This document shows, piece after piece, positions 8,297 through 32,662 of a stretch of DNA of 64,000 nt. Each line of letters starts with the position of its first letter. The first letter of the stretch is position 1. This stretch comes from Gammaproteobacteria bacterium (GTDB lineage: Bacteria; Pseudomonadota; Gammaproteobacteria; JAADGQ01): the NCBI GenBank assembly GCA_021648145.1, contig JAKITI010000008.1, positions 1-64,000 of the forward strand, written 5' to 3'. The translations under genes and the position numbers were made by a program. The notes under the pieces are model-generated. The model was given only the letters and a program-made list of their open reading frames with translations, had not been told where the DNA came from and searched no databases.

Positions 8297-9250
8297 TTGA
8301 AAAAATTATTTTTACATTTAATAGGGGTGATTCTCTTAGTGTTAAGCACCTCTTCAGTAGCTCATGAGGAAGCACCAGTGGCTCGTGCGGGAGCATGGAA
8401 GCCTTTCTGGACGGCCAGCGTCTATTTGGGAGAGCATAAACCGGCATTGACTCAAATCTATGAGAATGTCTTCATTGCGCCATTAACGTTTAGTGATGGT
8501 GAAATTTTACTGGAGACTGGGGAGACAATCGAAGCAACCCGAGAATTTCGAAATGATTTAGAAGCATTGCCAGGGGGGGTCGAGTTTGGAGGAGAATTCG
8601 AGTGGCTTTTCTCCAAACGTTTTTCGGTATTTGCAGGGTTAAGCAGTTGGGAATCAAAAGAAGCTCGCTCCACTTCAAGAGGCAATGTTCTGGTTGAAAA
8701 GCGGGATGTTGAGGCGCTGAATGTTCGTACTGCCAAGATGTCGTATAGCCAGGCATTTCTGGGGACACGTTTTTCGTTGCTGCATAAACCCAAGGCTTAT
8801 CGGCTCTATACGCGCTTTTCAATCAATAGTATTTTTGATTTTGATTACTTCGAAAAATTTGCTTTCACTTTTGATGCGGATGATTTTCCTAAAGCGGAAG
8901 GTATAAAAGATGTAGATTCTTTCAAGCGTGTGATGATAACCCAGGCTCGGGCGACAGCAATACTGGCATTCCAGGGAGGTTTGGGATTCGATTATTACTT
9001 AAACGATCAGTGGGCACTGAGTTTTGAAGGCGGATATATTTTGGGTTCAAGTAATTTTGGGTTGTCAAAAATTGATGTGAAGCATAATGTGCTGGATAAA
9101 GATGGCATGGGTGAAATATTGTACCCGGTTGCTGAAAACCCAGAAGATCGAAAAGGGTACTACTTGACTTCAGAGTCACTCAAGTATTACCTTCTAAACC
9201 TGAATCCAAAAGGTTGGAAAGCAGCGATTACGTTACGATTTGCTTATTAA
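8297..9250 (+). CDS. Predicted outer-membrane beta-barrel protein, paralogue of the gene at 24390
   Basis: I do not recognise a named family. The 317-residue protein begins with a signal peptide (MKKLFLHLIGVILL..., cleavage likely after SSVAH or nearby). It then shows alternating hydrophobic/polar strands and ends ITLRFAY with a terminal aromatic residue, as in outer-membrane barrels. It shares landmarks with the protein at 24390-25319: GGVEF, then LSSWE versus YSSWE, a KMSYSQAFLG versus KLSYNDFFVG block, and a GWKAAITLRFAY versus SWKVMLKFTVYY ending. Start TTG is chosen because the signal peptide begins there. A G7 run encodes part of GGVEF. A link to the 18-27 kb envelope cluster is inferred from the paralogy. 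Confidence 0.65.
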   Translation: MKKLFLHLIGVILLVLSTSSVAHEEAPVARAGAWKPFWTASVYLGEHKPALTQIYENVFIAPLTFSDGEILLETGETIEATREFRNDLEALPGGVEFGGEFEWLFSKRFSVFAGLSSWESKEARSTSRGNVLVEKRDVEALNVRTAKMSYSQAFLGTRFSLLHKPKAYRLYTRFSINSIFDFDYFEKFAFTFDADDFPKAEGIKDVDSFKRVMITQARATAILAFQGGLGFDYYLNDQWALSFEGGYILGSSNFGLSKIDVKHNVLDKDGMGEILYPVAENPEDRKGYYLTSESLKYYLLNLNPKGWKAAITLRFAY

Positions 9251-18433: not shown

Positions 18434-20137
18434 TTGAATATAAAAAATATTCTCAAAATATTGATTTGCTTGTGGGGGGGGGGGAGTTTTATTGTTCCCA
18501 GTATTAGCTATTCAGCCCTTGACGGTGTTCCTGAAGAGGATAGAGAGGCACCTGAAGGGGTCTTTGCACCCGATACATCAAGCTTTGACGATGCGCAAGC
18601 GGATATAAAGCTACTCCCTGACTCTAACTTGGAAGATGATCTGTCGATGGAGGGGGCTGAGCCTTTGAGTGAAGCGGTTAAGCCTGAAACAAGCCAAGAG
18701 CCACTACCTGAAGTTAAAACTAAAGTAGAAGTGATTGAAGAGCCTGTTGCTGACACCGAAGAGAAAGGCTACCTTTCTCGGTTTTTTGTCGCTGAAAAGT
18801 GGCCAGAACTCAGTGTGAGTGGCTATCTGAAAAATGAAACCGCATATCGCTTACGCGAGCCGCGCTCTTTTACGAAAATCAGAAATATTTTTTACCTGAA
18901 TGCAGGTTATGAAATGACTCCCGATATTAAATTAAATTTTTCGGGCTGGGCTTATTACGATCTTGCCTATGATTTGTACGATTACCAGACAATCGCGGCA
19001 CGCCTGGAGCGTGAAGCGAAAGAGCCGTTGGTCTTTATAGCCAACCTGCCTGAGGAGACAGACTCTCCCGTTGCCGAAGTTAGGGAGCTTTATCTGGATC
19101 TGTTTTTTGAAAATGTTGATGTTCGCCTTGGCAAGCAATACATCATCTGGGGAGTGCTTGAAGGTAATCGAGTGACTGATGAGATAAATCCGCTGGATTT
19201 TCGCGAGCTTTTTTTACCTGATTTGCTAGATTATCGTGTACCACTCTGGTCTGCTAAAGTCGATTATTACCGAGATGAAGCGGATTATCAGTTTGTGCTT
19301 ATTCCACAGCTTAAGTTTCACCAACCTGGCCCCCAAGGATCAGAGTGGGAGCTATTACAAGAAGTCCCTAATACGACATTTCCGAAGTCCTATAAGCTTT
19401 CCAATGCTGAATTTGCTTTAAAAGCAACAACAGGTCAGTTTTTAGAGACTGAAATAACACTGAGCTATTTTTATACGTGGGATGATTACCCCGTGTTATT
19501 TCGAAAAATGAGAGTCGATTTTGATCCTGAGCAGACCTTTTTTCCGACTTATACGCGCATTTCTATTTTTGGTGCGACCTTTATCAAACCAGTGAATAAA
19601 TACATCGTAAAAGGTGAGATTGCTTATGTACCCGATAAATATTTCGGTATAGCGAATGATACCGATGGCGATGGTGACGGATTTCTTGACCAAAATGGGG
19701 TGTTCAAAAAAGCTCATATTCGCTGGGGTCTGGGTGTTGATTTTAATTACAAAGGCATGGAAGTCTCACCTGCAATCGTCCAGTGGGTCATTATGGCGTA
19801 TGACAAACCCATCATTCAGGATGAGTTTGATACCAGCTTGAGTCTTTATCTGCGCAAGGAGTTGCATGAAATTAATGCACTATTTGAGCTTCTGGCGATT
19901 TATTCAATTAACTTTAAGGATGCTTATCTACAACCCAAAATTGCTTTTCGAATTACAGATAGCTTGCAAATAACGGCTGGCTTTGATCTGTTCAGCGGTG
20001 AAAATTCGCAATTTGGTGTCGGGGTTGGCGGAAATGCACAAACAGGCAATTTAGTCATTGTTAAAGAGCGAGCCCGCTTTTTTGGAAACTTTGATGATAA
20101 TGATCGAATTTTTGTAGAGTTTAAATACGCTTTTTAA
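18434..20137 (+). CDS. DUF1302-like outer-membrane beta-barrel protein, copy 1 (possibly phase-variable)
   Basis: About 567 residues. A signal peptide (N-I-K-N-I-L-K-I-L then hydrophobic) is followed by an acidic Pro/Glu-rich linker of about 100 residues. A long beta-rich domain follows, with LGKQYIIWGVLEGNRVTDEI, PLDFRELFLPDLLDYR and YFYTWDDYPV, ending FVEFKYAF with a terminal Phe typical of outer-membrane barrels. The strand pattern and the RLGKQ..WG motif resemble DUF1302 proteins, which usually neighbour RND pumps, as here. A TDGDGDG loop near 19660 looks like a calcium site. I chose TTG 18434 because AGGG lies seven bases upstream; the longer TTG 18383 frame has none. An 11-G tract sits in the signal-peptide region. 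The next gene is a tandem paralogue. Confidence 0.65.
   Translation: MNIKNILKILICLWGGGSFIVPSISYSALDGVPEEDREAPEGVFAPDTSSFDDAQADIKLLPDSNLEDDLSMEGAEPLSEAVKPETSQEPLPEVKTKVEVIEEPVADTEEKGYLSRFFVAEKWPELSVSGYLKNETAYRLREPRSFTKIRNIFYLNAGYEMTPDIKLNFSGWAYYDLAYDLYDYQTIAARLEREAKEPLVFIANLPEETDSPVAEVRELYLDLFFENVDVRLGKQYIIWGVLEGNRVTDEINPLDFRELFLPDLLDYRVPLWSAKVDYYRDEADYQFVLIPQLKFHQPGPQGSEWELLQEVPNTTFPKSYKLSNAEFALKATTGQFLETEITLSYFYTWDDYPVLFRKMRVDFDPEQTFFPTYTRISIFGATFIKPVNKYIVKGEIAYVPDKYFGIANDTDGDGDGFLDQNGVFKKAHIRWGLGVDFNYKGMEVSPAIVQWVIMAYDKPIIQDEFDTSLSLYLRKELHEINALFELLAIYSINFKDAYLQPKIAFRITDSLQITAGFDLFSGENSQFGVGVGGNAQTGNLVIVKERARFFGNFDDNDRIFVEFKYAF
18474..18484 (+). repeat. Poly-G tract (11 G) in the signal-peptide region: candidate phase-variation switch
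   Basis: Eleven consecutive G residues encode Trp-Gly-Gly-Gly at about codons 14-17 of the first DUF1302-like gene. With 11 G the frame is open to the stop at 20137; 10 or 12 G would truncate the protein after a few residues. Long poly-G tracts near the 5' ends of surface-protein genes are the classical substrate for slipped-strand on/off switching in Neisseria, Campylobacter and Helicobacter. The paralogue at 20143 has no such tract. Confidence 0.8.
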
Positions 20138-20142
20138 ATGAG

Positions 20143-21891
20143 ATGTTTTGGATGTTTTATCGTAGTTTTTCCATGAATCGTGTATTAATCCAGGCTTTTT
20201 GGCTTGTTGCTCTACTATTAAGTGCCGTTGTTTATGCAGAGCCTCCTACTCTGGAAGATAATCGTTTTACGGATGATAGTGCATTAGGAATTACGCCGCT
20301 GGAGACCCAGGCAGAAGAGTTTGAGAAGCTGGAGCCTGTAAAGAGGCCGGAAATTGATCGTTACTCAGATGAGTCATCAAACAAAGAGATTGATATTCCT
20401 CTGGTTGTTGACCCCGAAGATAAAGAGGGCGATGTTGATGCGCCGAGTGATACTCAACCTGCTGAGAAAGAAAAGGGATCAGAAACACAAACAGAGGTGC
20501 CAAAAGCCTCTGCTATTGAAGGTAAAGGTTATTTATCACAGTTTTTTTCCGCATTAACCGTACCAGAGCTAACGGTTAGTGGGTACTTAAAGAATGAGCT
20601 CGCATATCGCTTTCGTGAGCCTCGCTCAATAACGAAGGTTAAAAACATACTTTATCTGGAAGCGCAGTATGTTGCGAGTGATACCATGCAGTTTAATATT
20701 GCAGGCTGGGCCTATTATGACCATGCTTATGATCTGTTTGATTATCAAACGATTTCAGCGCGTCTGGAACGTGAAGAGAAGGAGCCGCTGGTTTTTATAG
20801 AAGATCTACAAGAAAATAAGGACTCATCAGTGGCAGAGCTGCGTGAATTTTATGTTGATTTGTTTCTGGATGATTTTGATATTCGCTTAGGTAAACAATA
20901 TGTTATTTGGGGCATACTTGAAGGAAATAGAGTGACGGATGAAATTAATCCTATCGACTTTAGAGAGTTAACGCTACCTGACCTGCTCGACTATCGCATA
21001 CCACTCTGGACGGCCAAGGTGGATTACTATCGAGATGAAGCGACGTATCAATTTCTATGGATCCCTGAACTCAAGTTTCATAAACCCGCTCCAAGTGGCT
21101 CTGAATGGGAGTTATTACAGAATGTTGAAGGTACTTATTATCCTGAGTCATATAAACTTGTAAATTCCGAGTTTGCTTTTCGTATGACGACGGATCAATG
21201 GTTTGATTCACAAATTGCGCTGAGCTACTTTTATACATGGGATGATTACCCTGTGATGTTTCGTCGCATGAAAATCATAGCAGATGCTGATCCTGAATTT
21301 TTCCCCACTTATTCACGTATGTCACTATGGGGGGCAACGATTCTCAAACCCATCGGAAAAACCATTTTAAAAGGCGAACTTGCTTATGCACCGGATAAAT
21401 ATTTTGGTATTCAAAATACAACAGATGGTGATAATGATGGTTTTCTTGATCAAAATGGGGAGTTTAAAAAAGCACATGTCCGCTGGGGGCTGGGCGTTGA
21501 TTTTAATTACAAAGGCATGGAAATTTCTCCAGCCATTGTACAATGGATTATTTTTGCGTATGACAAGCCGATTATTCAGGATGAGTTTGAGACCACGATC
21601 AGCCTTTATTTGCGCAAGCCATTCTCAAAAGGCCGAAGGTTGTTTGAACTATTGGCTATTTATTCACCAAACTATAAAGAGAGCTATGTAAAGCCGAAAG
21701 TTACATTTTTGATGTCAGACAGCTTTCAATTTACCGCAGGTTTTGATCTGTTTCAGGGAAAAAAGTCCCAGTTTGGTGTGGGTGTGGGTTCAACACAATC
21801 GGGTATAGTCGCACTTGATCAGCGTGCCCGATTCTTTGGTAATTTTAATGACAATGACCGATTTTTTGTTGAATTTAAATATTCATTCTGA
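20143..21891 (+). CDS. DUF1302-like outer-membrane beta-barrel protein, copy 2
   Basis: A tandem paralogue of the preceding gene, 582 residues in this reading. Blocks correspond one to one: SGYLKNELAYRFREPRS, LGKQYVIWGILEGNRVTDEI, PIDFRELTLPDLLDYRIPLW, YFYTWDDYPVMF, and a terminal FVEFKYSF. A signal peptide starts at an internal Met (MNRVLIQAFWLVALLLS; ATG 20173), which may be the true start; no strong ribosome-binding site decides. The acidic linker is conserved in character but not in sequence. A TDGDNDGFLDQNG loop near 21421 again resembles a DxDxDG calcium site. It is 5 bases after copy 1 and 37 bases before the RND pump, so co-transcription is likely. Confidence 0.65.
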   Translation: MFWMFYRSFSMNRVLIQAFWLVALLLSAVVYAEPPTLEDNRFTDDSALGITPLETQAEEFEKLEPVKRPEIDRYSDESSNKEIDIPLVVDPEDKEGDVDAPSDTQPAEKEKGSETQTEVPKASAIEGKGYLSQFFSALTVPELTVSGYLKNELAYRFREPRSITKVKNILYLEAQYVASDTMQFNIAGWAYYDHAYDLFDYQTISARLEREEKEPLVFIEDLQENKDSSVAELREFYVDLFLDDFDIRLGKQYVIWGILEGNRVTDEINPIDFRELTLPDLLDYRIPLWTAKVDYYRDEATYQFLWIPELKFHKPAPSGSEWELLQNVEGTYYPESYKLVNSEFAFRMTTDQWFDSQIALSYFYTWDDYPVMFRRMKIIADADPEFFPTYSRMSLWGATILKPIGKTILKGELAYAPDKYFGIQNTTDGDNDGFLDQNGEFKKAHVRWGLGVDFNYKGMEISPAIVQWIIFAYDKPIIQDEFETTISLYLRKPFSKGRRLFELLAIYSPNYKESYVKPKVTFLMSDSFQFTAGFDLFQGKKSQFGVGVGSTQSGIVALDQRARFFGNFNDNDRFFVEFKYSF

Positions 21892-21928
21892 TTATAAAAT
21901 TTCCTAAGCTTGGAGCTGCTGTTTTTTT

Positions 21929-24382
21929 ATGTTGAAACCTCTTTACTCTCTGGGATTGAAATATCCGAAGCTTATATTGTTAGCGATTGCAATGCTGACG
22001 GTTTATTTCGCACTGCAGCTTCCTCAGCTTCGCTGGGAAACGGATGCACGCGTCTATCTTCCCAATGGGCACCCCGCCATTTTGTATGATGAAAAAGTGG
22101 ATACCATATTTGGTGTTAAAGATGCCATGGTCATTGCAATCGTCAATGAAGAGGAGGGTATATTTAACCCCGATACACTTGCCCATATCGCCTCAATTAC
22201 TGAAAAGCTTGCAGCACTGCCCGGCATAAAAGCTAATAGGACTCTTGACGTTGTTTCACTTTCGACCGCAACGCTGTTTGTCGGTGATGAGGAGTCCATT
22301 GGTGCAATGGCATTGATGAAAACACCAGCAACCGATGAAGCCTCGATCGAAGCGTTGAAAAAAATTGTCTACGGTAATGCCGATCTTTTTGTGGGCAATA
22401 TCGTATCGCAAGATGGCAAAGCGGCCATGATTCGAGCACGGCTCAAAGAAGGTTCTGACAACCGTTATATGACTTACTGGCAAGTCAAAGCCATTCTCGA
22501 TGCTGAATATGGCACCGCGACTGAATGGCAAGGCGAGTGGTCAGGAGATGGCGATTGGGGGCAAGGTGATTGGGATAATTCAGCGTGGGAAGGGGGCAGC
22601 CAGACTTCACAAAGCAGCTTTGATAAAGTTTATATTTCGGGTCGCCCCGTCATTGAAGTAACTTCCGGGCTGGATGCGATGACTGATATGAAAGTCATGA
22701 TTCCTATGTTGGTGGCTGCAATCGGATTTGCACTGTTCATGATTTTTCGCACCGCACGGGGCGTTGTATTGCCGATTGCAGTCGTTATGATTTCGATTAT
22801 CTGGACGATGGGTGTAATGGTGCTGATGGGGATTCCGTTGTATACCATTTCAACGATGTTACCGGTCATTTTGGTAGCGGTGGGAATTGGTGATGCGGTG
22901 CATTTAATGAGTCGTTATTATGATCATGTATTGCAAGATCCGCATAACGATGCTAATGACATCGTCCAAAAAATGATGCATGAGCTTGGGCCACCACTTT
23001 TGGTGACTTCGCTGACGACATCCATTGGATTTTTATCATTCTATTTTGCTGAGATGCCCCCTTTTAAAATCTTTGGCCTGTTTACCGTGCTGGGCATTAT
23101 GTTTAGCTGGCTTATTTCTATTATGCTGATTCCAGCCGCATTAAGTTTATTGACACCTAAAGTGGGTAACTATTTAGCCAGGCAGCGCTCAATACGAATT
23201 CGCTCTGAGCAAAGTGTATTAACTTCAAGACTAGTTCAGGCGAGCCGATTGTTCGTACGTTATCGAACAGGTATTGCGGTCACTATTGTCGCAATCTCTA
23301 TACTTTCTGTGATGGGTGCATCACGCCTTTTTGTTGATTCTAGCTGGATGAGTGATTTCAGAGAAGACAGTGACATTGTCGTTTCAAACAATGTTTTGAA
23401 TAATAAATTTGATGGCACACTGTTTCTCAATGTGGTGTTTGAAAGTGAAGAGAATGACACTATTAAATCCCCCGAATTACTGAAAAAAATAGAAGAAATG
23501 CAGCAACATCTGGAGCAACTTCCCTTTGTTGGTGACTCACTGTCTATTGTTGATTATCTAAAAAGTGTCAATAAAAATCTAAATGCTGGGCAAGAAGCGT
23601 ATAACGTCCTGCCCGATTCCAGAGCAATCATCGGTGAATATCTCTATTTGCTCTCGATCTCAGGGCAGCCGGAACAGCTCAGTGAAGTGATTGATTATGA
23701 TTATCGCCGCGCACTTGTGAGCTTTTCGATTCAAACGGATCACACACAAGATATTAAAGTTATTATTGATGCCGCTGAGTCATATATAGATAAGGAGTTT
23801 GAAGACTTTCCTGTTGAAGTGAATCTGGCGGGCTCAGCGAATAATTCATTTGTATGGGCGAAACTGTTGATCGAAAGCCAGGCAATTGCAATTATATTTT
23901 CAAAAATTGGCATTTTCCTTATTGCATCACTGTTATTTAGATCCATGGTCATCGGCTTGTTTGTGGTGTTACCTGTCACGATTACAACGTTAATTATGGC
24001 GGGTGTTGCGGGTGCGTTAAGAATACCGATTGATGTATCAACAACATTAGCTGCAGGTGTTGCGATTGGTGTGGGGGTGGATTATGCCGTGCACTACATT
24101 TTTAAATATAAAGCAGCGTTGAATGAATTTTCAGATTCCATGTTAGCGACGGAAGAAACGTTCCGGCGAGTCGGGCGTACGATTGTATTGAATGCCTTGA
24201 TTGTTATTTCAGGTTTTGTTGTCTTACTATTTTCACAATTTCCACCGCATATTAAGTTGGGATACTTTGTGATCATTTATATGGCATTAAGCTGCCTTGT
24301 GGCATTAATAATTTTGCCGGTACTGTTTTCATTCTACAAACCCATGGATAAAAAAATCGGACGTGTTCGTGCAATCACATAA
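21929..24382 (+). CDS. RND superfamily exporter, MMPL type
   Basis: An 817-residue inner-membrane transporter. One N-terminal membrane span (about residues 12-32) precedes a large periplasmic domain, a five-to-six-span block (about 258-410), a second periplasmic domain, and a final membrane block. Both halves have the RND TM4-type motif: VAVGIGDAVHLMSRYY near 318 and AAGVAIGVGVDYAVHYIFKY near 712, with Asp residues expected to carry protons. The first periplasmic loop contains an odd Trp/Asp/Gly-rich insert (about residues 197-230). In other proteobacteria, DUF1302 proteins sit beside this transporter class, sometimes with DUF1329, which is absent here. Lipid or hydrophobic-molecule traffic is a reasonable inference but unproven. 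Confidence 0.85.
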   Translation: MLKPLYSLGLKYPKLILLAIAMLTVYFALQLPQLRWETDARVYLPNGHPAILYDEKVDTIFGVKDAMVIAIVNEEEGIFNPDTLAHIASITEKLAALPGIKANRTLDVVSLSTATLFVGDEESIGAMALMKTPATDEASIEALKKIVYGNADLFVGNIVSQDGKAAMIRARLKEGSDNRYMTYWQVKAILDAEYGTATEWQGEWSGDGDWGQGDWDNSAWEGGSQTSQSSFDKVYISGRPVIEVTSGLDAMTDMKVMIPMLVAAIGFALFMIFRTARGVVLPIAVVMISIIWTMGVMVLMGIPLYTISTMLPVILVAVGIGDAVHLMSRYYDHVLQDPHNDANDIVQKMMHELGPPLLVTSLTTSIGFLSFYFAEMPPFKIFGLFTVLGIMFSWLISIMLIPAALSLLTPKVGNYLARQRSIRIRSEQSVLTSRLVQASRLFVRYRTGIAVTIVAISILSVMGASRLFVDSSWMSDFREDSDIVVSNNVLNNKFDGTLFLNVVFESEENDTIKSPELLKKIEEMQQHLEQLPFVGDSLSIVDYLKSVNKNLNAGQEAYNVLPDSRAIIGEYLYLLSISGQPEQLSEVIDYDYRRALVSFSIQTDHTQDIKVIIDAAESYIDKEFEDFPVEVNLAGSANNSFVWAKLLIESQAIAIIFSKIGIFLIASLLFRSMVIGLFVVLPVTITTLIMAGVAGALRIPIDVSTTLAAGVAIGVGVDYAVHYIFKYKAALNEFSDSMLATEETFRRVGRTIVLNALIVISGFVVLLFSQFPPHIKLGYFVIIYMALSCLVALIILPVLFSFYKPMDKKIGRVRAIT

Positions 24383-24389
24383 GGGACGA

Positions 24390-25319
24390 ATGAAGTCTCT
24401 GAGTGCCTCTTTTATCATGGTGTTCTCAATATCTGTTGCTTATGCTGAAAATGAGCCCGTTTGGGGCTTTTCCCCTGTTCTTAGCTATTCCAAGCCTAAA
24501 TTAAAACTGTTTAATGAAAAAGAGCTTAAGGCACCTATTATTTTAACAGCGAACAGTCTGGACGAAGTTGGCAATAGTATAAAAACACCTTTTACATTTA
24601 GTAACCCGCTGGATGATATAGAGGCGGGTTTATCGGGGGGCGTTGAATTTCAGTGGCGCGTACATAAAAATCACTCCTTAGTGCTGGGTTACAGCTCCTG
24701 GGAAGGCACCTCCAGTGGCACAATTAATGCTAATTTTCCACTGCAGGAAATATTGAGTAATACGATCCAGCACAGGAAAACAAAATTATCGTATAACGAT
24801 TTTTTTGTGGGTTGGCGCTATCGGTTATTTCAACGTAATAGATATAATTTTTATTTTCAAGCCGGTGTGAATGAGCTGTATGATATCGATTTCAGGGAAG
24901 ATTTAAATTTTGAATTTGTTGATATTCGAAGTGATACCGTGGTCGGTGCACTGGTGAGCACACCGCAGCGTAATATCATTGTACAGGCGCAAAGTACGGG
25001 TAACATGATGTTGCAGTTTGGTGGCGGGGGTGAATACTTTTTAACAGAACAATTTTCAATTGGGTTTGAGGCAGGCTATAGCTTTGGGCTTGAAGATGCA
25101 ACGCTTAAGAATCAACAGCGGCGCTGGGACTTTTTAGCAATGGATAATATCAGTACGGCGGCACTGAACTTGCCCACAAAGAAAGTGGATAATGAAACGT
25201 ATTATCTGAGTGACTATTATTATGATGAGGATGAAGAGGAGTATATCGCTGTTTATGAAAAGCTAAAACTTGATTTTGATAGCTGGAAAGTCATGTTGAA
25301 ATTTACGGTATATTATTAA
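24390..25319 (+). CDS. Predicted outer-membrane beta-barrel protein, paralogue of the gene at 8297
   Basis: A 309-residue protein with a signal peptide (MKSLSASFIMVFSISVAYA). The mature region is rich in beta strands and aromatic residues, with SGGVEFQW, GYSSWEG, NFYFQAGVNELYDIDF and a terminal FTVYY. It resembles the 8297 protein throughout and has no family I can name. Start ATG 24390 is preferred because AAGGGA lies four bases upstream, overlapping the end of the RND gene; the GTG at 24363 would add residues before the signal peptide. An acidic patch (YYYDEDEEEYIAV) near the end may be a surface loop. Its place between the RND pump and the TPR-barrel protein suggests a part in the same system. 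Confidence 0.65.
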   Translation: MKSLSASFIMVFSISVAYAENEPVWGFSPVLSYSKPKLKLFNEKELKAPIILTANSLDEVGNSIKTPFTFSNPLDDIEAGLSGGVEFQWRVHKNHSLVLGYSSWEGTSSGTINANFPLQEILSNTIQHRKTKLSYNDFFVGWRYRLFQRNRYNFYFQAGVNELYDIDFREDLNFEFVDIRSDTVVGALVSTPQRNIIVQAQSTGNMMLQFGGGGEYFLTEQFSIGFEAGYSFGLEDATLKNQQRRWDFLAMDNISTAALNLPTKKVDNETYYLSDYYYDEDEEEYIAVYEKLKLDFDSWKVMLKFTVYY

Positions 25320-25330
25320 TTATAAGTACT

Positions 25331-27748
25331 ATGCGTAAATTATTCCCGATCTCTATTATATCTGCGTTATTAGCCACACTATTTTTAGTGTGGGTGCCCC
25401 AGTTAGTTGCACAGCCACAAAAAACCATTAATAGTTCTGCTCCTGCTTTTGCTCCCATACAGTTCAATAAATCTCAAAGAACGAAAAAACAAAAGCTGCT
25501 TGCACACGGCAAAAAATATATCAGTGCAGGCGATATTAAAAATGCGATTACTATTTTTTTAAGCGCATTGAAAAAGTTTCCAAATGATATTGATGTGCTC
25601 AATCATCTTGGAATTGCATATTCGATGAATAAACAGTTGACTCAGGCACAAGAAGTATTCTTGCAAGTGATTGAGCAAGACCCAAAGGCAGCGGGGGCAC
25701 ATATGAATGTTGCGAGAATATTTGGTCAGCAGGGGAATGCTGAAAAAGAGCGGTATCATTTTTCTCAGGTTGTTACGCAAGAGCCTGATAGCAAACGAGG
25801 TAAACAAGCACAGACTCGCTTATGGCTCTTAAAAGGCAAAGATTTTTTTCAGAAAAAAGAGTATGAGAAGGGTGAGGCTGAGATTAAAAAGTTGTTGAAA
25901 GAGCGCCCTAATTCACCCGCAGCCCTCTTTGCTTTAGGTTCTGCTTATCTGGAGCAAAATAGAGGTGAAGAGGCTGTAAAAACATTTACTCAGCTTGCTG
26001 AAATTAACCCAGATAATTTTAAAGCTCAATTTGGCTTGGCTCGCGCTTATTTAAGTGGAAGAAAGTTTGATGAAGCATTCGTGCAGCTTGATAAAGCAGC
26101 GGTAACGACGCAGAGCGATATACAAAAAAAACAACTGAAAGCAGTGATGCTAAATGCATATATGAATGATGGAACACGACTTTCAAAACTGGGGAAATTA
26201 AAGTTAGGGCAGGCACAATTTAAAAAGGCCGTCGAATTAGATCCTGATAATCCGCGAGCTCATTTTGGTCTCGGAGGCACATATCTCCACATGAAGCAGC
26301 TCGATAAAGCGCGAGAATTATATAAACGCGTGACAGAGCTTGATCCAACCAATCCCATTGGTTATAAGCAGTTGGGTAATGTTCTGCTTGGTTTGGGGGA
26401 GTTTAATGAGGCCGCTGAGGCCTATTTAACCGCAGTGACACTCGAAGGTGACCCTGAAAAATCAGAAAAATTACTGTTCAAAGCACAAGTTGTATTGGCT
26501 CGTGCTGAATTAAAAGCTGAAAACTATGATGCCGCAGAAAAATTATTTCAGGCACTGATTGATCTGAATCCAGATGAATACGAACCCTATCTTTATATGG
26601 GATTTGTAAAAAACCGCAAAGGGGATCTAGACGAGGCGGTGAAAATGTATGAAAAGCTACTGGAGTTGAAACCAGGTTATATTCCGGGGTTATGGTTTTT
26701 ATCACTGCTTTATGAGCAGCAGGGAGAAAATGAGAAAGCCGCCGTGGGCTATAGGCAGATTGTGAATGGTTCCACTGGAAAATTGGCTGAAAAATCAAAA
26801 GAGCGTATACGTATTGTTGATCGTCGTCTGCGGCCTGATTCTTATGCTATGACCTATCAAATGGGCTATGACGATAATGTGAATCAGAACCCTGAACAAC
26901 CTGACTCTGATTATCGCACTGACCTGTTTTTTAATATGGCATACCAGTTCAGGCCAAAGAAGAACCTTAAATATGACTTCAGTCTATCGCCATCATATTC
27001 GGTTTTTCATCTGCAACAGTTTGATTTTTTCTCCTATGATGCAAGCGCTTCTGTCAATTCCGGGCCGGTAGATCGTTACTGGACACTGGGCTACAGCTAT
27101 CGGAAAAACAGTCGTTTGATGCTGGATGAAGCTATCAGCAAGAGCTCAGTGTATAAAGCGAGTGGCTATCGGCGCTTGAATATGAAAAGTATCTCTCCTG
27201 AGACTTGGGGCTCTGATGTGAGTTCCACGGTGACAGGAACGTTATCTTATACGGATAAAGAGTCATTAGTCGGAACGATTTCTGATGCAAAAATTTATAC
27301 TGTGGGAGCGACTCTTAGGCAGCCTTTTGCGATGCGTAGTAATTTACGTTTGGGGTATACCCTGACACGAACAGACAATAAAAATGAAGTGGACTCAGAT
27401 TTTGCAAATACCAGTCACGAATTCAGCACCTATTTGAGTAAAAGTTTTAAACATAAGCTCTCAGGAAGCTTGGGCTATCAGTTATTGTATTCAAGATTCA
27501 AGAATCCTGATTCATTTACAGGTTTTAAGAAGCGTCGATCAAATTTACAAAATAAACTGTCCGCACGGCTGAATTATAGATTAAATTCACAACTATTTTT
27601 TTATGGCCAATATAGTTGGCAAATTATACGCTCCGAATTTTCATCTAACATTGTATTAAGCGGTGAGACGATTGCAACACTCGAACAAAATGCATTGGTC
27701 AGCTATATTAGAAATAACTTTGTTTTAGGCTTTAGGTTGGAGTTTTGA
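25331..27748 (+). CDS. TPR-repeat protein with a C-terminal outer-membrane barrel
   Basis: An 805-residue secreted protein. After a signal peptide (MRKLFPISIISALLATLFLV), residues about 55-490 form roughly ten tetratricopeptide repeats, for example AITIFLSALKKFPNDIDVLN and QFKKAVELDPDNPRAHFGLG. Residues about 500-805 are beta-rich (QMGYDDNVNQNPEQ onward) and end FVLGFRLEF with terminal Phe. A periplasmic TPR superhelix fused to an outer-membrane barrel is the architecture of PgaA and BcsC (polysaccharide export) and of Slam (surface lipoprotein display). The barrel here is about 300 residues, close to those families. It ends the five-gene cluster and a terminator follows. Which cargo it passes is unknown. 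Confidence 0.75.
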   Translation: MRKLFPISIISALLATLFLVWVPQLVAQPQKTINSSAPAFAPIQFNKSQRTKKQKLLAHGKKYISAGDIKNAITIFLSALKKFPNDIDVLNHLGIAYSMNKQLTQAQEVFLQVIEQDPKAAGAHMNVARIFGQQGNAEKERYHFSQVVTQEPDSKRGKQAQTRLWLLKGKDFFQKKEYEKGEAEIKKLLKERPNSPAALFALGSAYLEQNRGEEAVKTFTQLAEINPDNFKAQFGLARAYLSGRKFDEAFVQLDKAAVTTQSDIQKKQLKAVMLNAYMNDGTRLSKLGKLKLGQAQFKKAVELDPDNPRAHFGLGGTYLHMKQLDKARELYKRVTELDPTNPIGYKQLGNVLLGLGEFNEAAEAYLTAVTLEGDPEKSEKLLFKAQVVLARAELKAENYDAAEKLFQALIDLNPDEYEPYLYMGFVKNRKGDLDEAVKMYEKLLELKPGYIPGLWFLSLLYEQQGENEKAAVGYRQIVNGSTGKLAEKSKERIRIVDRRLRPDSYAMTYQMGYDDNVNQNPEQPDSDYRTDLFFNMAYQFRPKKNLKYDFSLSPSYSVFHLQQFDFFSYDASASVNSGPVDRYWTLGYSYRKNSRLMLDEAISKSSVYKASGYRRLNMKSISPETWGSDVSSTVTGTLSYTDKESLVGTISDAKIYTVGATLRQPFAMRSNLRLGYTLTRTDNKNEVDSDFANTSHEFSTYLSKSFKHKLSGSLGYQLLYSRFKNPDSFTGFKKRRSNLQNKLSARLNYRLNSQLFFYGQYSWQIIRSEFSSNIVLSGETIATLEQNALVSYIRNNFVLGFRLEF

Positions 27749-27820: not shown

Positions 27821-28624
27821 CTAACGCGTTACTTTTGGTAGCTCGCTTGATAAAATATCAAGGTTTGGTAGCATAACGATCTCTATCCGGCGATTAAGCT
27901 TCCGGCCTTCTTCAGTTTCATTCTCAGATCTCGGGCGAAATTCACCAAAACCAGCCGCAGAGATATTCTCAGGGGCAACATCCATACTGGTCAGTAGGTG
28001 GATGACGGTGAGAGCTCGGGTTGTGGATAATTCCCAATTACTCGGAAAGCGTGCGCTTTTTATCGGATTATTGTCTGTGTGTCCTTCAATTTGAAAGCGC
28101 CTGTCTGAAAACTGGCTCAGTACTAATGCAATGTTAGCTAGAGCCTCTTTACCTTCGGGGTTTAAGTGAGCACTTCCACTCTTAAACAGAACATTGTTCG
28201 GAAGGTTAATGACAATCCGGCCCTGCTCAATGCTGACCGTTAATTGACCCCCATCAATCATGGTTTTCAATCGATTAACAAACTGTGCATATATTTCATT
28301 ACGGCGTTTAGTTTCGGCTTCAATATTACTCAGAGTGGCCATTTTTTCCTGAGACTCTGAAAGCTCCTTTTGAAGCGCCAATTTTCTTGCTTCAAGTTTG
28401 TTTAACTCGTCCTGAGTTTTTGCAATTTGCTTTTTAGAAGAATCCAGCTCCTGTTCGGTTTTTTTAATTTTTTCTTTATTACGACTAATTTCATCTTGAG
28501 CGCTCTCCAAAGATTGGTGCATGGCATCTTTTTCGGCGAGTGCGGTCTCGAATTTACCGCTGGATACACAGGCGGATAAAAGAACTGAAGATAGAAGCGT
28601 GATTGTCAGTGTGCTAAATTTCAT
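27821..28624 (-). CDS. OmpA/MotB-domain lipoprotein with a coiled coil
   Basis: A 267-residue protein. A signal peptide with lipobox LLSAC puts the lipidated Cys at residue 19. Residues about 25-110 are a charged coiled coil (KEKIKKTEQELDSSKKQIAK). The C-terminal OmpA-like domain has FKSGSAHLNPEGKEALANIA, the peptidoglycan-binding IEGHTDNNPI and NWELSTTRA, and RRIEIVMLP. It likely links the outer membrane to the cell wall; the spacing between lipid anchor and OmpA domain resembles YiaD/MotB-type proteins. It is convergent with the envelope cluster and may belong to a separate unit. Confidence 0.88.
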   Translation of the reverse strand: MKFSTLTITLLSSVLLSACVSSGKFETALAEKDAMHQSLESAQDEISRNKEKIKKTEQELDSSKKQIAKTQDELNKLEARKLALQKELSESQEKMATLSNIEAETKRRNEIYAQFVNRLKTMIDGGQLTVSIEQGRIVINLPNNVLFKSGSAHLNPEGKEALANIALVLSQFSDRRFQIEGHTDNNPIKSARFPSNWELSTTRALTVIHLLTSMDVAPENISAAGFGEFRPRSENETEEGRKLNRRIEIVMLPNLDILSSELPKVTR

Positions 28625-28907
28625 GTTAGCTCCTTATGATTTTTATTGGTCTGAGTTTTCCGTTGAATTTGGGTCAACTATGTTGAACCAAATCGGCCAT
28701 CCTGTTGTTCCGACTCACACAGAGTAGTGATTTTTTTAATCTATAGCAATGACTTGAGTCCGTTTATAGAAAAAGAAACGGTTTGATGCCAGGAAGACTG
28801 TACGAGAAGGTTGGTGTTGTGTGTGTGAATGTGTATATCTGCTTGGCTTTGTTTGAGTGATTTTGTTGTTGGCAGCGGGGTAGTCCGCATAAATTACGTC
28901 CCTTTTT
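28625..28907. other. Non-coding gap, 283 bp
   Basis: This lies upstream of the OmpA-like gene and downstream of the DUF2310-like gene, both on the minus strand. A minus-strand frame of about 62 codons exists (28736-28924) but overlaps the next gene's end and shows no recognisable domain, so I do not call it. No RNA gene or clear repeat was seen. It presumably holds the promoter of the OmpA-like gene. Confidence 0.5.
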
Positions 28908-29708
28908 TCAAGACTCATCTTCACTGTTCACATTTGTGGATAACTCTGAAACTAATCTACTTTCATCACATTTAAAGGCTATAAAATCAGATGATGTTTT
29001 ATCTGCTATAAGCCAGTCATTGCCTGTGATTGGACATTTTCTTTGTTGGTCTTGTTTTTGTGACCCATCTCGATAATTGAAGAGAAAATAATAGGTTGGT
29101 ACAGCCGTTAGTTTTTCAACTAATGCACACAGTTTACGCCCAGATTTATTAATGCTGGAGAAAGGGTTTTGCATTTGTTCTTGTGTAAATGCTTCGTATG
29201 CACCACTAGATAACCACAATCCAGACAACCTTTCAAAATCTTGATTCCAGAAATAAATATTATCGTAATCCACTCCGTTATGATCTGTACCAGGAAATCT
29301 ATATAATGGTATGGGGCGATGTGTATCACCACAAAGCAATGGTGATTCCCAGCCATTTCTTAATATATAATAGGATGAGTTTTCAGGAACTGTATAATTT
29401 GGATTACCTGCATCTCTTCCTGTGAATATACTTTCTATGGTGCTACCTGTATTTTTTTCTATTTTTTCTATCAAGTCTAAACTGTACTCACTGCAATATT
29501 TTAAAAATAGCGAATCTTTTTCAGGGCAAATAACAGGTACTCGCAGCGTTAAATCATCGACAATTATTGGGTGGTCTTTTTTGATAATTTGACCCGTCCG
29601 GTCTAAATGAAAAACATAATCATAAGCCCAGTCTATCCAGTCCTCGTATTGTTGATTATGTTTTTCCTTGAATCGTTTATTTTTGATAATGATATCGAAT
29701 GCGTACAT
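28908..29708 (-). CDS. DUF2310-like Zn-ribbon-containing protein
   Basis: A 266-residue cytoplasmic protein with no signal peptide. The C-terminal block CPITGNDWLIADKTSSDFIAFKCDESRLVS matches my memory of DUF2310, described as a Zn-ribbon-containing, possibly nucleic-acid-binding family in gammaproteobacteria. Only one Cys of each expected Cys pair is present (CPITG, KCDES), so metal binding may be lost. The N-terminal part (YAFDIIIKNKRF) fits the same family. Function unknown. It is on the same strand as glnE but separated by about 80 bases. Confidence 0.55.
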   Translation of the reverse strand: MYAFDIIIKNKRFKEKHNQQYEDWIDWAYDYVFHLDRTGQIIKKDHPIIVDDLTLRVPVICPEKDSLFLKYCSEYSLDLIEKIEKNTGSTIESIFTGRDAGNPNYTVPENSSYYILRNGWESPLLCGDTHRPIPLYRFPGTDHNGVDYDNIYFWNQDFERLSGLWLSSGAYEAFTQEQMQNPFSSINKSGRKLCALVEKLTAVPTYYFLFNYRDGSQKQDQQRKCPITGNDWLIADKTSSDFIAFKCDESRLVSELSTNVNSEDES

Positions 29709-29788
29709 GATTATTTATCCTTAGAACCAAAGCGTTGAAAGAGATTTTCGAATAAAACTCACTCTACAGATGCAACTCTAATTTACAA

Positions 29789-32662
29789 TCATGGCGACTT
29801 ATCAAGCAACTTCTGCCAAATTGTTTTAACCTGACTGCTCTCTTCTTTAAATTTTTGACTATCAACTAAAGCCTTTTTTCCCTGAAGCACTTGGTGGTGA
29901 CCCGCATGGCGATAGCTGCGATAAGCGTTGCTCAATTGTTTAAACTCCTCTTCTGTAAAAAAGAATATTTTAGTGAGCGCTTCGAGCAGGCTCAGGTGAT
30001 CCGTCCAACGAAGCAGCTCTGGGTGCTTGTGTGCGTTGGCAAGGATGCCGTATTGTACTAAAAACTCAATATCAACAATGCCTCCCACAGCATGTTTAAG
30101 GTCAAATTTTCCCTGTTGCTTCGTTGTGAGTGTTTGACGCATCTGCTCTCGCATTTTTTTTATCTCTTGTTTCAGTGTTGTTAATGGCTCTTTTTCTGAA
30201 AGTACTTTTTGCCGAATCGCTGTGAATTTGTCGCAAAGCCTACCTTGATTGTTGCCCGCGATAAATCGTGCCCGAATCAATGCCTGATGTTCCCATGTCC
30301 AGGCAGACGAGTGTTGATAAGTAGAAAAAGCATCCAGGCTGCTCACCAATAGGCCAGAAGAGCCATTGGGGCGCAGGCGCATATCAACTTCATAGAGCAT
30401 TCCTGATGAAGTCAGTGTATTGAGCATATGAATAATACTTTGACCCAGTCGAGTGAAAAACTGTGCATGACTGATGGGTTTCACGCCTGTTGTTTGTGAA
30501 TCGCTGTGAGGGTCGTCATACAAAAAAACGAGATCCAGATCGGAGCCATAACCCAGCTCAATGCCACCTAGTTTGCCGTAACCGATAATAGCAAAATCAA
30601 TATCGGTGCTTGCATTGTGCTGCTGCGGCATCCCATGTTTTTTGGTCAAACGTTTTAATGCGAGTTGCAAGGCCTGTTGTAAAATATTTTCTGCAATTGC
30701 CGTCAAATAATCACTGACATTCATGAGTGGTAGTTTACCCATAATATCTGTTGCGGCCACACGTAAAACATGTGCCTTTTTGAACTGGCGCAGTACGTCC
30801 ATCTGGCGCTCAAGGTCATCCTCTTTAATTTGCTCAAGTTGAAAGGCCAGTTCAATTTCCATGCGGGTTTTATCGAGCGGCGTATAAAGCACTCTTGGAT
30901 CAAGCAATTCATCCAGCAATAAGGGGTAGCGTGTTAACTGCTCAGTAATCCAGGGGCAAGCCAGATTTAATTGCACCAGTTGGGAAAGTGCCATCGGGTT
31001 CTCAGTGAGGAGCGAAAAATAGGCACTGCGCCGAGTCATGGCTTCGATAAACTGGATGAGCCTCTGTAATGGCTTAATTGATTGGCTTTGAGTCAGTGCT
31101 GCGCCAAGTAGCAGTGGCATCAGTCGATCAAGGCGCTCTTTGGCCATCATAGCTAGGCTTGTATAGCGTGATGAATGGTGTAACTGTGTGAGGGTTTGAG
31201 CAATTTCAATTGCGGTGTTGCTATCATAGCCAGCCTGCGTGAGCAGTGCGATGGCCTGTTCTGAATGAGCGCTGCTTTGCCATATATCAGAAAATTGCGT
31301 GAAATGGTCTGTTTGAGGAGCATCAAACACCTGCTCAAAGTGGCTATGAACTTGATTCAGATGTTGCTCAAGTGCCGTCATAAATGTTTGCCAATTGGAA
31401 AACCCCATGGAAAAGGCCAGTCGTTCACGGCTTAATTTGTTTTCAGGCAGCGTATGTGTCTGCTTGTCCTCCATCATTTGCAGACGATTTTCTGTACGGC
31501 GTAAAAAAACATAGGCTTCCGTCAGAGTGAGAACAACATGCCTAGGCAGGTAGTTTTTTTGCTCCAGCAGGCGTAAAATTTTTAAGATACTGCGTTCTCG
31601 CAGCTCAGGCTCTCTGCCACCACGAATCAGTTGAAAGGCTTGCCCAATAAACTCTACTTCACGAATTCCACCAATGCCCAGCTTGATATTATTCTCTTTT
31701 TTTCGGCGCTCAACATCATGATTGATGCTTTGTTTGAGCTTTCGCAATGCTCTGAAGGCGCTAAAATCCAGATAACGACGATAGACAAAGGGGCGCATGA
31801 TTTTCAGTAATTGTTCACCTGCAGCGGAGTCACCCGAGATGATGCGTGCTTTAACCCAGGCGTAACGTTCCCAGTCTCGGCCGTGAGCTTGATAGTAGGC
31901 TTCCATTGCATCAAAGCTCATGGCCAAAGGGCCACTGTCGCCAAATGGACGTAAGCGCACGTCGGTACGAAATACATACCCCTGAGGTGTTAAGGCCGAC
32001 AGTGCATTGATAAGGCGCTGCCCCAGTTTGGTAAAGTATTCACCATTGCTTAAACTTTTGGATCGGCCTGTTGTTTGACCTTGCGATGGATAGGCAAAAA
32101 TCAGATCAATGTCAGAGGAAAAATTCAATTCATGAGCGCCGAGCTTACCCATCGCGATGACAACCATTTTCTGTGGAACCCTATTTTCATCAACGGGTGT
32201 TCCGTAGATTTTTGATTGCCATTGGTGAAGCCGTGTTAACGATTCATCAACACACGCTTCGGCAAGTTCAGATAGGTCGGAGAGGGTTTCATCAAGCGAG
32301 GCTTGTTGTGCGAGGTCACGCCAGGCAATACGCACCATTTCTCTCCGACGAAAATGGCGCAAGACATCAAGCAGTGCAGCCTCCTCAGTCACTTTTGTGA
32401 GTTGTTTTGAGAGTACGGTGTGATATCTGTTTTTTTCGTAAATTGTGTTCAGGTCATTGCTGTGTATCAGTTTAAGCAGCATGTTTGGGTGGCGAATACA
32501 GCTTTGAGCCACAAACTCACTTCCTGCCCAAACGGTTTGTAATGTTTTCAACAGTAAAGGATCGGAACTCAGCGGTGAGTTTTCAATTGAAGTCGCATTG
32601 CAGAAGGACTCCCATTGACTGGAGATGAGGCTTTGTAACTCTTGTGATACTGGCAATGGCAT
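29789..32662 (-). CDS. glnE: Bifunctional glutamine synthetase adenylyltransferase/deadenylase
   Basis: A GlnE of about 957 residues that attaches AMP to, or removes it from, glutamine synthetase under PII control. The two nucleotidyltransferase domains are both intact: ELNFSSDIDLIFAYP near residue 175 (deadenylase half) and ELGYGSDLDLVFLYDD near 700 (adenylyltransferase half), with GGIREVEFIGQ and GGIVDIEFLVQ helical blocks. I chose ATG 32662 because AAGG is seven bases upstream; TTG 32680 is the alternative. It is divergent from pilU, with fewer than 80 bases between them. Confidence 0.96.
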   Translation of the reverse strand: MPLPVSQELQSLISSQWESFCNATSIENSPLSSDPLLLKTLQTVWAGSEFVAQSCIRHPNMLLKLIHSNDLNTIYEKNRYHTVLSKQLTKVTEEAALLDVLRHFRRREMVRIAWRDLAQQASLDETLSDLSELAEACVDESLTRLHQWQSKIYGTPVDENRVPQKMVVIAMGKLGAHELNFSSDIDLIFAYPSQGQTTGRSKSLSNGEYFTKLGQRLINALSALTPQGYVFRTDVRLRPFGDSGPLAMSFDAMEAYYQAHGRDWERYAWVKARIISGDSAAGEQLLKIMRPFVYRRYLDFSAFRALRKLKQSINHDVERRKKENNIKLGIGGIREVEFIGQAFQLIRGGREPELRERSILKILRLLEQKNYLPRHVVLTLTEAYVFLRRTENRLQMMEDKQTHTLPENKLSRERLAFSMGFSNWQTFMTALEQHLNQVHSHFEQVFDAPQTDHFTQFSDIWQSSAHSEQAIALLTQAGYDSNTAIEIAQTLTQLHHSSRYTSLAMMAKERLDRLMPLLLGAALTQSQSIKPLQRLIQFIEAMTRRSAYFSLLTENPMALSQLVQLNLACPWITEQLTRYPLLLDELLDPRVLYTPLDKTRMEIELAFQLEQIKEDDLERQMDVLRQFKKAHVLRVAATDIMGKLPLMNVSDYLTAIAENILQQALQLALKRLTKKHGMPQQHNASTDIDFAIIGYGKLGGIELGYGSDLDLVFLYDDPHSDSQTTGVKPISHAQFFTRLGQSIIHMLNTLTSSGMLYEVDMRLRPNGSSGLLVSSLDAFSTYQHSSAWTWEHQALIRARFIAGNNQGRLCDKFTAIRQKVLSEKEPLTTLKQEIKKMREQMRQTLTTKQQGKFDLKHAVGGIVDIEFLVQYGILANAHKHPELLRWTDHLSLLEALTKIFFFTEEEFKQLSNAYRSYRHAGHHQVLQGKKALVDSQKFKEESSQVKTIWQKLLDKSP

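Follow-up and report, generated by a model that had tools for sequence, protein, structure and literature searches.

The window analysed here, a 64,000-nucleotide stretch of gammaproteobacterial DNA, carries five adjacent genes for envelope proteins on one strand, as an earlier note on this sequence had claimed; we call them O1 to O5 (Table 1). Their open reading frames are separated by gaps of 5, 37, 7 and 11 bases. The O4 start was placed at the first ATG; the longest open reading frame, from a GTG at 24363, would overlap O3. Hydrophobic, signal-like N-termini are visible on inspection of the O1, O2, O4 and O5 sequences, in agreement with the signal peptides claimed for every product but the pump, and the aromatic C-termini claimed for four products were also found and are kept across their families. 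Upstream of the cluster lie rpiA and an opposite-strand gene that reads as ilvA, and downstream, on the opposite strand, a gene for an OmpA-type protein. Promoter and terminator scans of the locus gave results near chance.

Table 1. Genes of the envelope cluster and a related gene in the window.
Feature	Description	Position	Strand	Remarks
O1	DUF1302-like outer-membrane barrel, tandem copy 1	18434..20137	+	TTG start; PF06980; last residue F
O2	DUF1302-like outer-membrane barrel, tandem copy 2	20143..21891	+	PF06980; last residue F
O3	MMPL/RND inner-membrane pump, HAE3 nearest	21929..24382	+	PF03176
O4	unnamed outer-membrane protein, ~310 aa	24390..25319	+	PF13568; last residue Y
O5	N-terminal TPR superhelix and 14-strand outer-membrane barrel	25331..27748	+	predicted model m1cf503d3e86c; last residue F
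O4 paralogue	putative system member only	8297..9250	+	264 bits with the O4 profile

The families assigned to the barrels, the pump and the TPR-barrel protein held up, with O1 to O3 passing Pfam cut-offs and O5 matching many TPR families. O1 and O2 score 52.1 and 51.2 bits with the DUF1302 model (cut-off 23.2), which they cover in part, and are 67% identical over 482 aa. All 66 members of the barrel family examined end in F, W or Y. Among the loci compared, a tandem barrel occurs only in the window and in a sister genome of the same genus; the tandem arrangement is local rather than a general trait. NCBIfam gave no name for O1, O2 or O4. Acidic low-complexity stretches lie between signal peptide and barrel in O1 (18530-18780) and O2 (20240-20535), and are missing from shorter relatives of ~490-510 aa. 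A run of 11 G (18474-18484) falls within the signal-peptide codons of O1, where slippage is possible; phase variation through this tract was considered and rejected, as the sister genome has no tract at that place. In previous work, the DUF1302/DUF1329 proteins PP_0765 and PP_0766 were found to be required for growth on Tween 20, and a role in substrate transport was hypothesised (PMC10866462).

O3 matches the MMPL model at 111.6 bits (cut-off 20.5), with a sterol-sensing-like match besides. Its best NCBIfam match is the HAE3 model TIGR00921, at 210.9 bits and under the cut-off of 351.9. NPC1, Patched, Dispatched, MmpL3 and HpnN are among the PDB structures related to it. The motifs GxGD and GVGVDY are kept in most relatives where they were matched. 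A Gly/Trp/Asp-rich stretch, GEWSGDGDWGQGDWDNSAWEGG, lies at 22520-22630 in a presumed periplasmic loop. O4 is only barely above the cut-off of OMP_b-brl_2, a general outer-membrane barrel model (27.8 bits against 27), and F or Y is the last residue in 58 of 58 family members. Its paralogue, ~9 kb before the cassette, has a counterpart in the sister genome.

The earlier note had described O5 as a PgaA/BcsC-like TPR-barrel protein. Structure prediction from 37 sequences gave a model with ~25 helices followed by 14 strands, two short strand pieces being taken as one (mean pLDDT 88.4, pTM 0.59); the low pTM leaves the angle between the TPR and barrel halves uncertain. A TPR superhelix and an outer-membrane barrel are thus both predicted, and the protein ends in F in 41 of 48 family members. 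In structural comparison, two 14-strand barrels, CymA (Z 22.5, rmsd 3.5, 275 residues) and OmpG (Z 21.4, rmsd 3.5, 263 residues), aligned to the barrel, and SPINDLY and OGT to the TPR part. The matches listed by Foldseek and VIA thus feature CymA and OmpG on the barrel side and eukaryotic TPR proteins on the superhelix side; neither Slam nor PgaA is among those listed, which excludes neither. PgaA and BcsC share with O5 the order of TPRs then outer-membrane barrel, but O5 has 14 predicted strands, the number in type XI translocons, rather than the 16 of PgaA (PMC8406197). Its scores with the PgaA model TIGR03939 (50.2 bits, cut-off 366.65) and the BcsC model NF008520 (62.2 bits, cut-off 858) also fall far short. 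The TPRs and barrel of the earlier description stand. The SlipAM (DUF560, PF04575) model has no match in the window O5 (E up to 5) or anywhere in the window genome, and matches 5 of 38 O5-family barrels (E up to 0.05, best 3.7e-7). In its predicted architecture, O5 resembles Slam/type XI proteins more than PgaA/BcsC. Because of the 14-strand topology and the SlipAM matches in some relatives, the modelled O5 looks as if it worked like a Slam-type translocon, while the window protein itself lacks the match that would place it in the Slam family.

Conservation of gene order supports a single system. Among 76 whole genomes, five distant ones gave strong O2 matches from beyond the genus, and the pump, O4 and O5 lay beside the barrel in all five. 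Scanning 84,980 species genomes with a barrel alignment yielded 64 loci, chiefly from Gammaproteobacteria MAGs, several of them labelled Chromatiaceae, Ectothiorhodospiraceae, Thiotrichaceae or Chromatiales; others were from Nitrospirota, including Candidatus Manganitrophus, and a few from distant Omnitrophota. Where at least 5.5 kb of downstream sequence was available (45 loci), O4 followed the barrel in 44, O5 was present up- or downstream in 42, and a pump lay between barrel and O4 in 35. Median spacings, with mechanically assigned ORF starts, were 37 bases from barrel to pump, -9.5 from pump to O4 and 9 from O4 to O5. The synteny search by which the earlier note would have let one system be refuted thus spoke for it, and an arrangement that recurs across dozens of genomes is far from chance.

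Two further families accompany the cassette: c4, a LolA_like/DUF1329 protein whose relatives belong to the LolA superfamily, and c5, a beta-rich secreted protein of ~330 aa without a known family. Each was found upstream of the barrel in 29 of 45 loci that had enough upstream sequence. Four loci (L066, L077, L083, L095) have a second gene order, O5-c5-c4-barrel and then the pump, with O4 after the pump in two of them and c4 uncalled in L066. Nitrospirota loci hold a reduced set with neither pump nor c4 adjacent, and the distant Omnitrophota loci have a pump, a LolA-like protein and a barrel, without O4. Very large O5 relatives of up to at least 2421 aa (L066:1-7266, L083:2-5518, L084:16177-21320, L095:3-4265) belong to the second cassette type, their ends lost at contig or locus edges. 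A ~150-aa protein with no Pfam family over cut-off directly precedes the barrel in 29 loci (for example L054:9459-9941); by eye it could be a DNA-binding, zinc-ribbon-like regulator. A recurrent ABC pair and tsaD downstream of relatives' cassettes were taken as neighbours.

In the window genome, c5 and c4 adjoin each other on contig C13 (~28139-28993, 149 bits, and ~29137-30003, 425 bits), unlinked to O1-O5. This c4 scores 154.2 bits with LolA_like and 51.1 bits with DUF1329. DUF1329 is therefore missing from the locus, as the earlier note had it, and not from the organism; its list of five genes was also incomplete as a whole set, lacking the secreted family c5 that accompanies the cassette elsewhere. 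In the sister genome, too, c5 and c4 form a pair, and the cassette lies on a different contig. This genome also has a c5 paralogue in divergent orientation next to another O5-like TPR-barrel gene (615 bits; L139:7725-11988), away from the cassette.

The predicted model of c5 is beta-rich and of moderate confidence (pLDDT 75.3), and structure comparison gave no clear match to its fold. No Pfam match to a TbpB-type domain was found in 32 members. A lipobox-like motif is present in only 1 of 33 c5 sequences, which argues that c5 is no ordinary lipoprotein client of the LolA-like carrier. Relatives of c5 exist without the cassette, as in one genome (G002) with c5-like copies where no close barrel was found. 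Possible Nitrospirota counterparts were compared by hhalign. For one upstream protein, c40, the value dropped from 95.5% to 9.5% after signal-peptide trimming; with signal peptides trimmed, c38 from Nitrospirota gave 61.6% and the gammaproteobacterial c32 74.6%, against less than 1% for controls. These sequence comparisons are only suggestive of kinship between the Nitrospirota upstream proteins and c5. At one Nitrospirota locus, three tandem secreted proteins (L099:7105-9713) that show a c5-like motif with weak profile support precede barrel-O4-O5, and two large secreted-looking proteins (L099:15531-21362) follow the set. Judged by linkage and co-occurrence, c5 is the best candidate cargo.

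Co-occurrence was examined in 143 gammaproteobacterial genomes, with thresholds set to part cassette versions from wider families. The barrel, O4 and close c4 were found in the identical ten genomes, which span nine families, and c5 in nine of these ten; none of the four was found in the remaining genomes at the thresholds used. The barrel scored above 700 bits in all but one of the ten, which has a fragment of 127 bits, and the best c4 match in each exceeded 380 bits. Lower-scoring barrels in G012 and G092 are the exceptions outside the ten. Distance correlations among the parts did not exceed those with housekeeping genes close by, and we rejected co-evolution measured in this way as support because it is not specific.

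Seven genomes were picked because a cassette in them had no pump next to it. Three of the gammaproteobacterial genomes encode one close pump copy each elsewhere (>900 bits), and in a fourth the close pump was matched in two pieces that lie in a single open frame. The three Nitrospirota genomes hold only distant pumps, at ~265 bits or less. This fits a single pump that works for one outer-membrane set or for several, as appears to be the case at least among the Gammaproteobacteria examined.

Synteny and shared distribution, both read from sequence, give good support to a real system, and comparative genomics supports O3, c4, O1/O2, O4, O5 and c5 belonging together as six families. The single uncharacterised envelope export or surface system of the earlier note is borne out in this respect, although the absence of DUF1329, the PgaA/BcsC likeness and the tandem as a general trait needed correction. 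Our leading proposal, to which we give somewhat less than an even chance, combines a lipid-type RND-LolA-DUF1302 export arm with a Slam-like route by which c5 leaves through the outer membrane. O3, powered by the proton gradient, would extract a molecule of hydrophobic or lipid type from the inner membrane, c4 would ferry it through the periplasm, and O1/O2 would insert it into, or pass it through, the outer membrane. We infer these roles of pump, c4 and barrels from their families, in line with what has been proposed for AmeABCD and PP_0765/PP_0766. For its part, c5 would be exported by Sec, be held by O5 through its TPR arm and be released to the surface through O5, perhaps with O4, where it may work together with the lipid. 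As c5 is no usual lipoprotein client of the carrier, we treat the two paths as separate arms; their meeting is the least supported step.

In a second reading, the system is an elaborate AmeABCD-type exporter of a hydrophobe or lipid. O4 and O5 would then be accessory outer-membrane or assembly parts serving the same small molecule, and c5, rather than being cargo, would bind a ligand in the periplasm or at the surface. AmeABCD of Castellaniella defragrans is a cassette of an HAE3 RND pump, DUF1329 and DUF1302 (PMC6394551), and an HAE3-like pump, a LolA-superfamily carrier and a DUF1302 outer-membrane protein are found here too, the carrier being unlinked in the window genome and adjacent in most relatives. 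The window genome has further pump-carrier-barrel groups without O4 and O5, among them a separate, canonical-looking DUF1302-DUF1329-pump group (L120), and the distant Omnitrophota loci also point this way. However, O4, O5 and c5 are extra here and the carrier is a shorter, LolA_like one. Even without an adjacent pump, O4 and O5 nearly always accompany the barrel, c5 is common to nine of the ten cassette genomes, and a small-molecule path has no obvious need of a TPR translocon; we consider this reading doubtful. No AmeC-like protein (COG4447) was recognised among the recurrent neighbours, in a scan that did not include a COG4447 model.

It is rather unlikely that the whole is a protein secretion and display system of its own kind, in which a Slam-like O5 exports beta-rich surface proteins of a new family and the RND-LolA-DUF1302 part is dedicated to supplying the lipid on which their anchoring or assembly depends. 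Uptake of hydrophobic nutrients, with import through the DUF1302 barrel and the pump working at the inner membrane, would fit the Tween 20 requirement for PP_0765 and PP_0766, but RND/MMPL pumps are known as exporters and recurrent degradation genes are absent beside the cassette, which makes it improbable. Very improbable, too, is a PgaA/BcsC-kind polysaccharide export machine with O5 as its porin: the TPR-then-barrel order and the weak PgaA and BcsC matches are set against the strand number and the low scores, and no polysaccharide synthesis gene, glycosyltransferase, deacetylase or glycan hydrolase was recognised in the recurrent neighbour families scanned. That separate genes are neighbours merely by vertical inheritance, as the housekeeping-like distance correlations would allow, is scarcely credible in view of joint presence and absence over 143 genomes, including genomes with unlinked c5-c4, and of two gene orders built from the same parts.

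The proposed joining of a lipid arm to a c5 exit can be set beside two further known systems. Type XI/Slam systems also have periplasmic TPRs and a 14-strand barrel, as predicted for O5, and a beta-rich secreted protein encoded nearby, as c5 is here; they differ in that the window O5 misses the SlipAM model and has about a dozen TPRs, the candidate cargo lacks a TbpB-type domain, and a pump and LolA-like carrier are attached (PMC8406197). The Borrelia BBJ23-29 cluster likewise combines a proposed inner-membrane pump, a LolA-like carrier, TPR proteins and an outer-membrane barrel, but its pump is an ABC transporter rather than an RND protein, its barrel belongs to the Omp85 family and its TPR proteins are separate (PMC13078400). 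A description of the O1-O5/c4/c5 set was not found in the open-access library searched. We regard the set as a real, conserved and apparently undescribed envelope system. It is best classed as a variant of the RND-LolA-DUF1302 export cassettes, extended by a Slam-like part in the outer membrane and a secreted protein as candidate cargo. Its hosts are mostly uncultured bacteria represented by MAGs, and it would otherwise go unnoticed. No function has been settled for DUF1302 or DUF1329, although both are widespread; their conserved tie to a TPR translocon and c5 yields a definite substrate candidate that can be tested. Should the lipid arm and the protein exit prove to be coupled, lipid transport by RND pumps and protein secretion across the outer membrane would be connected in one system.
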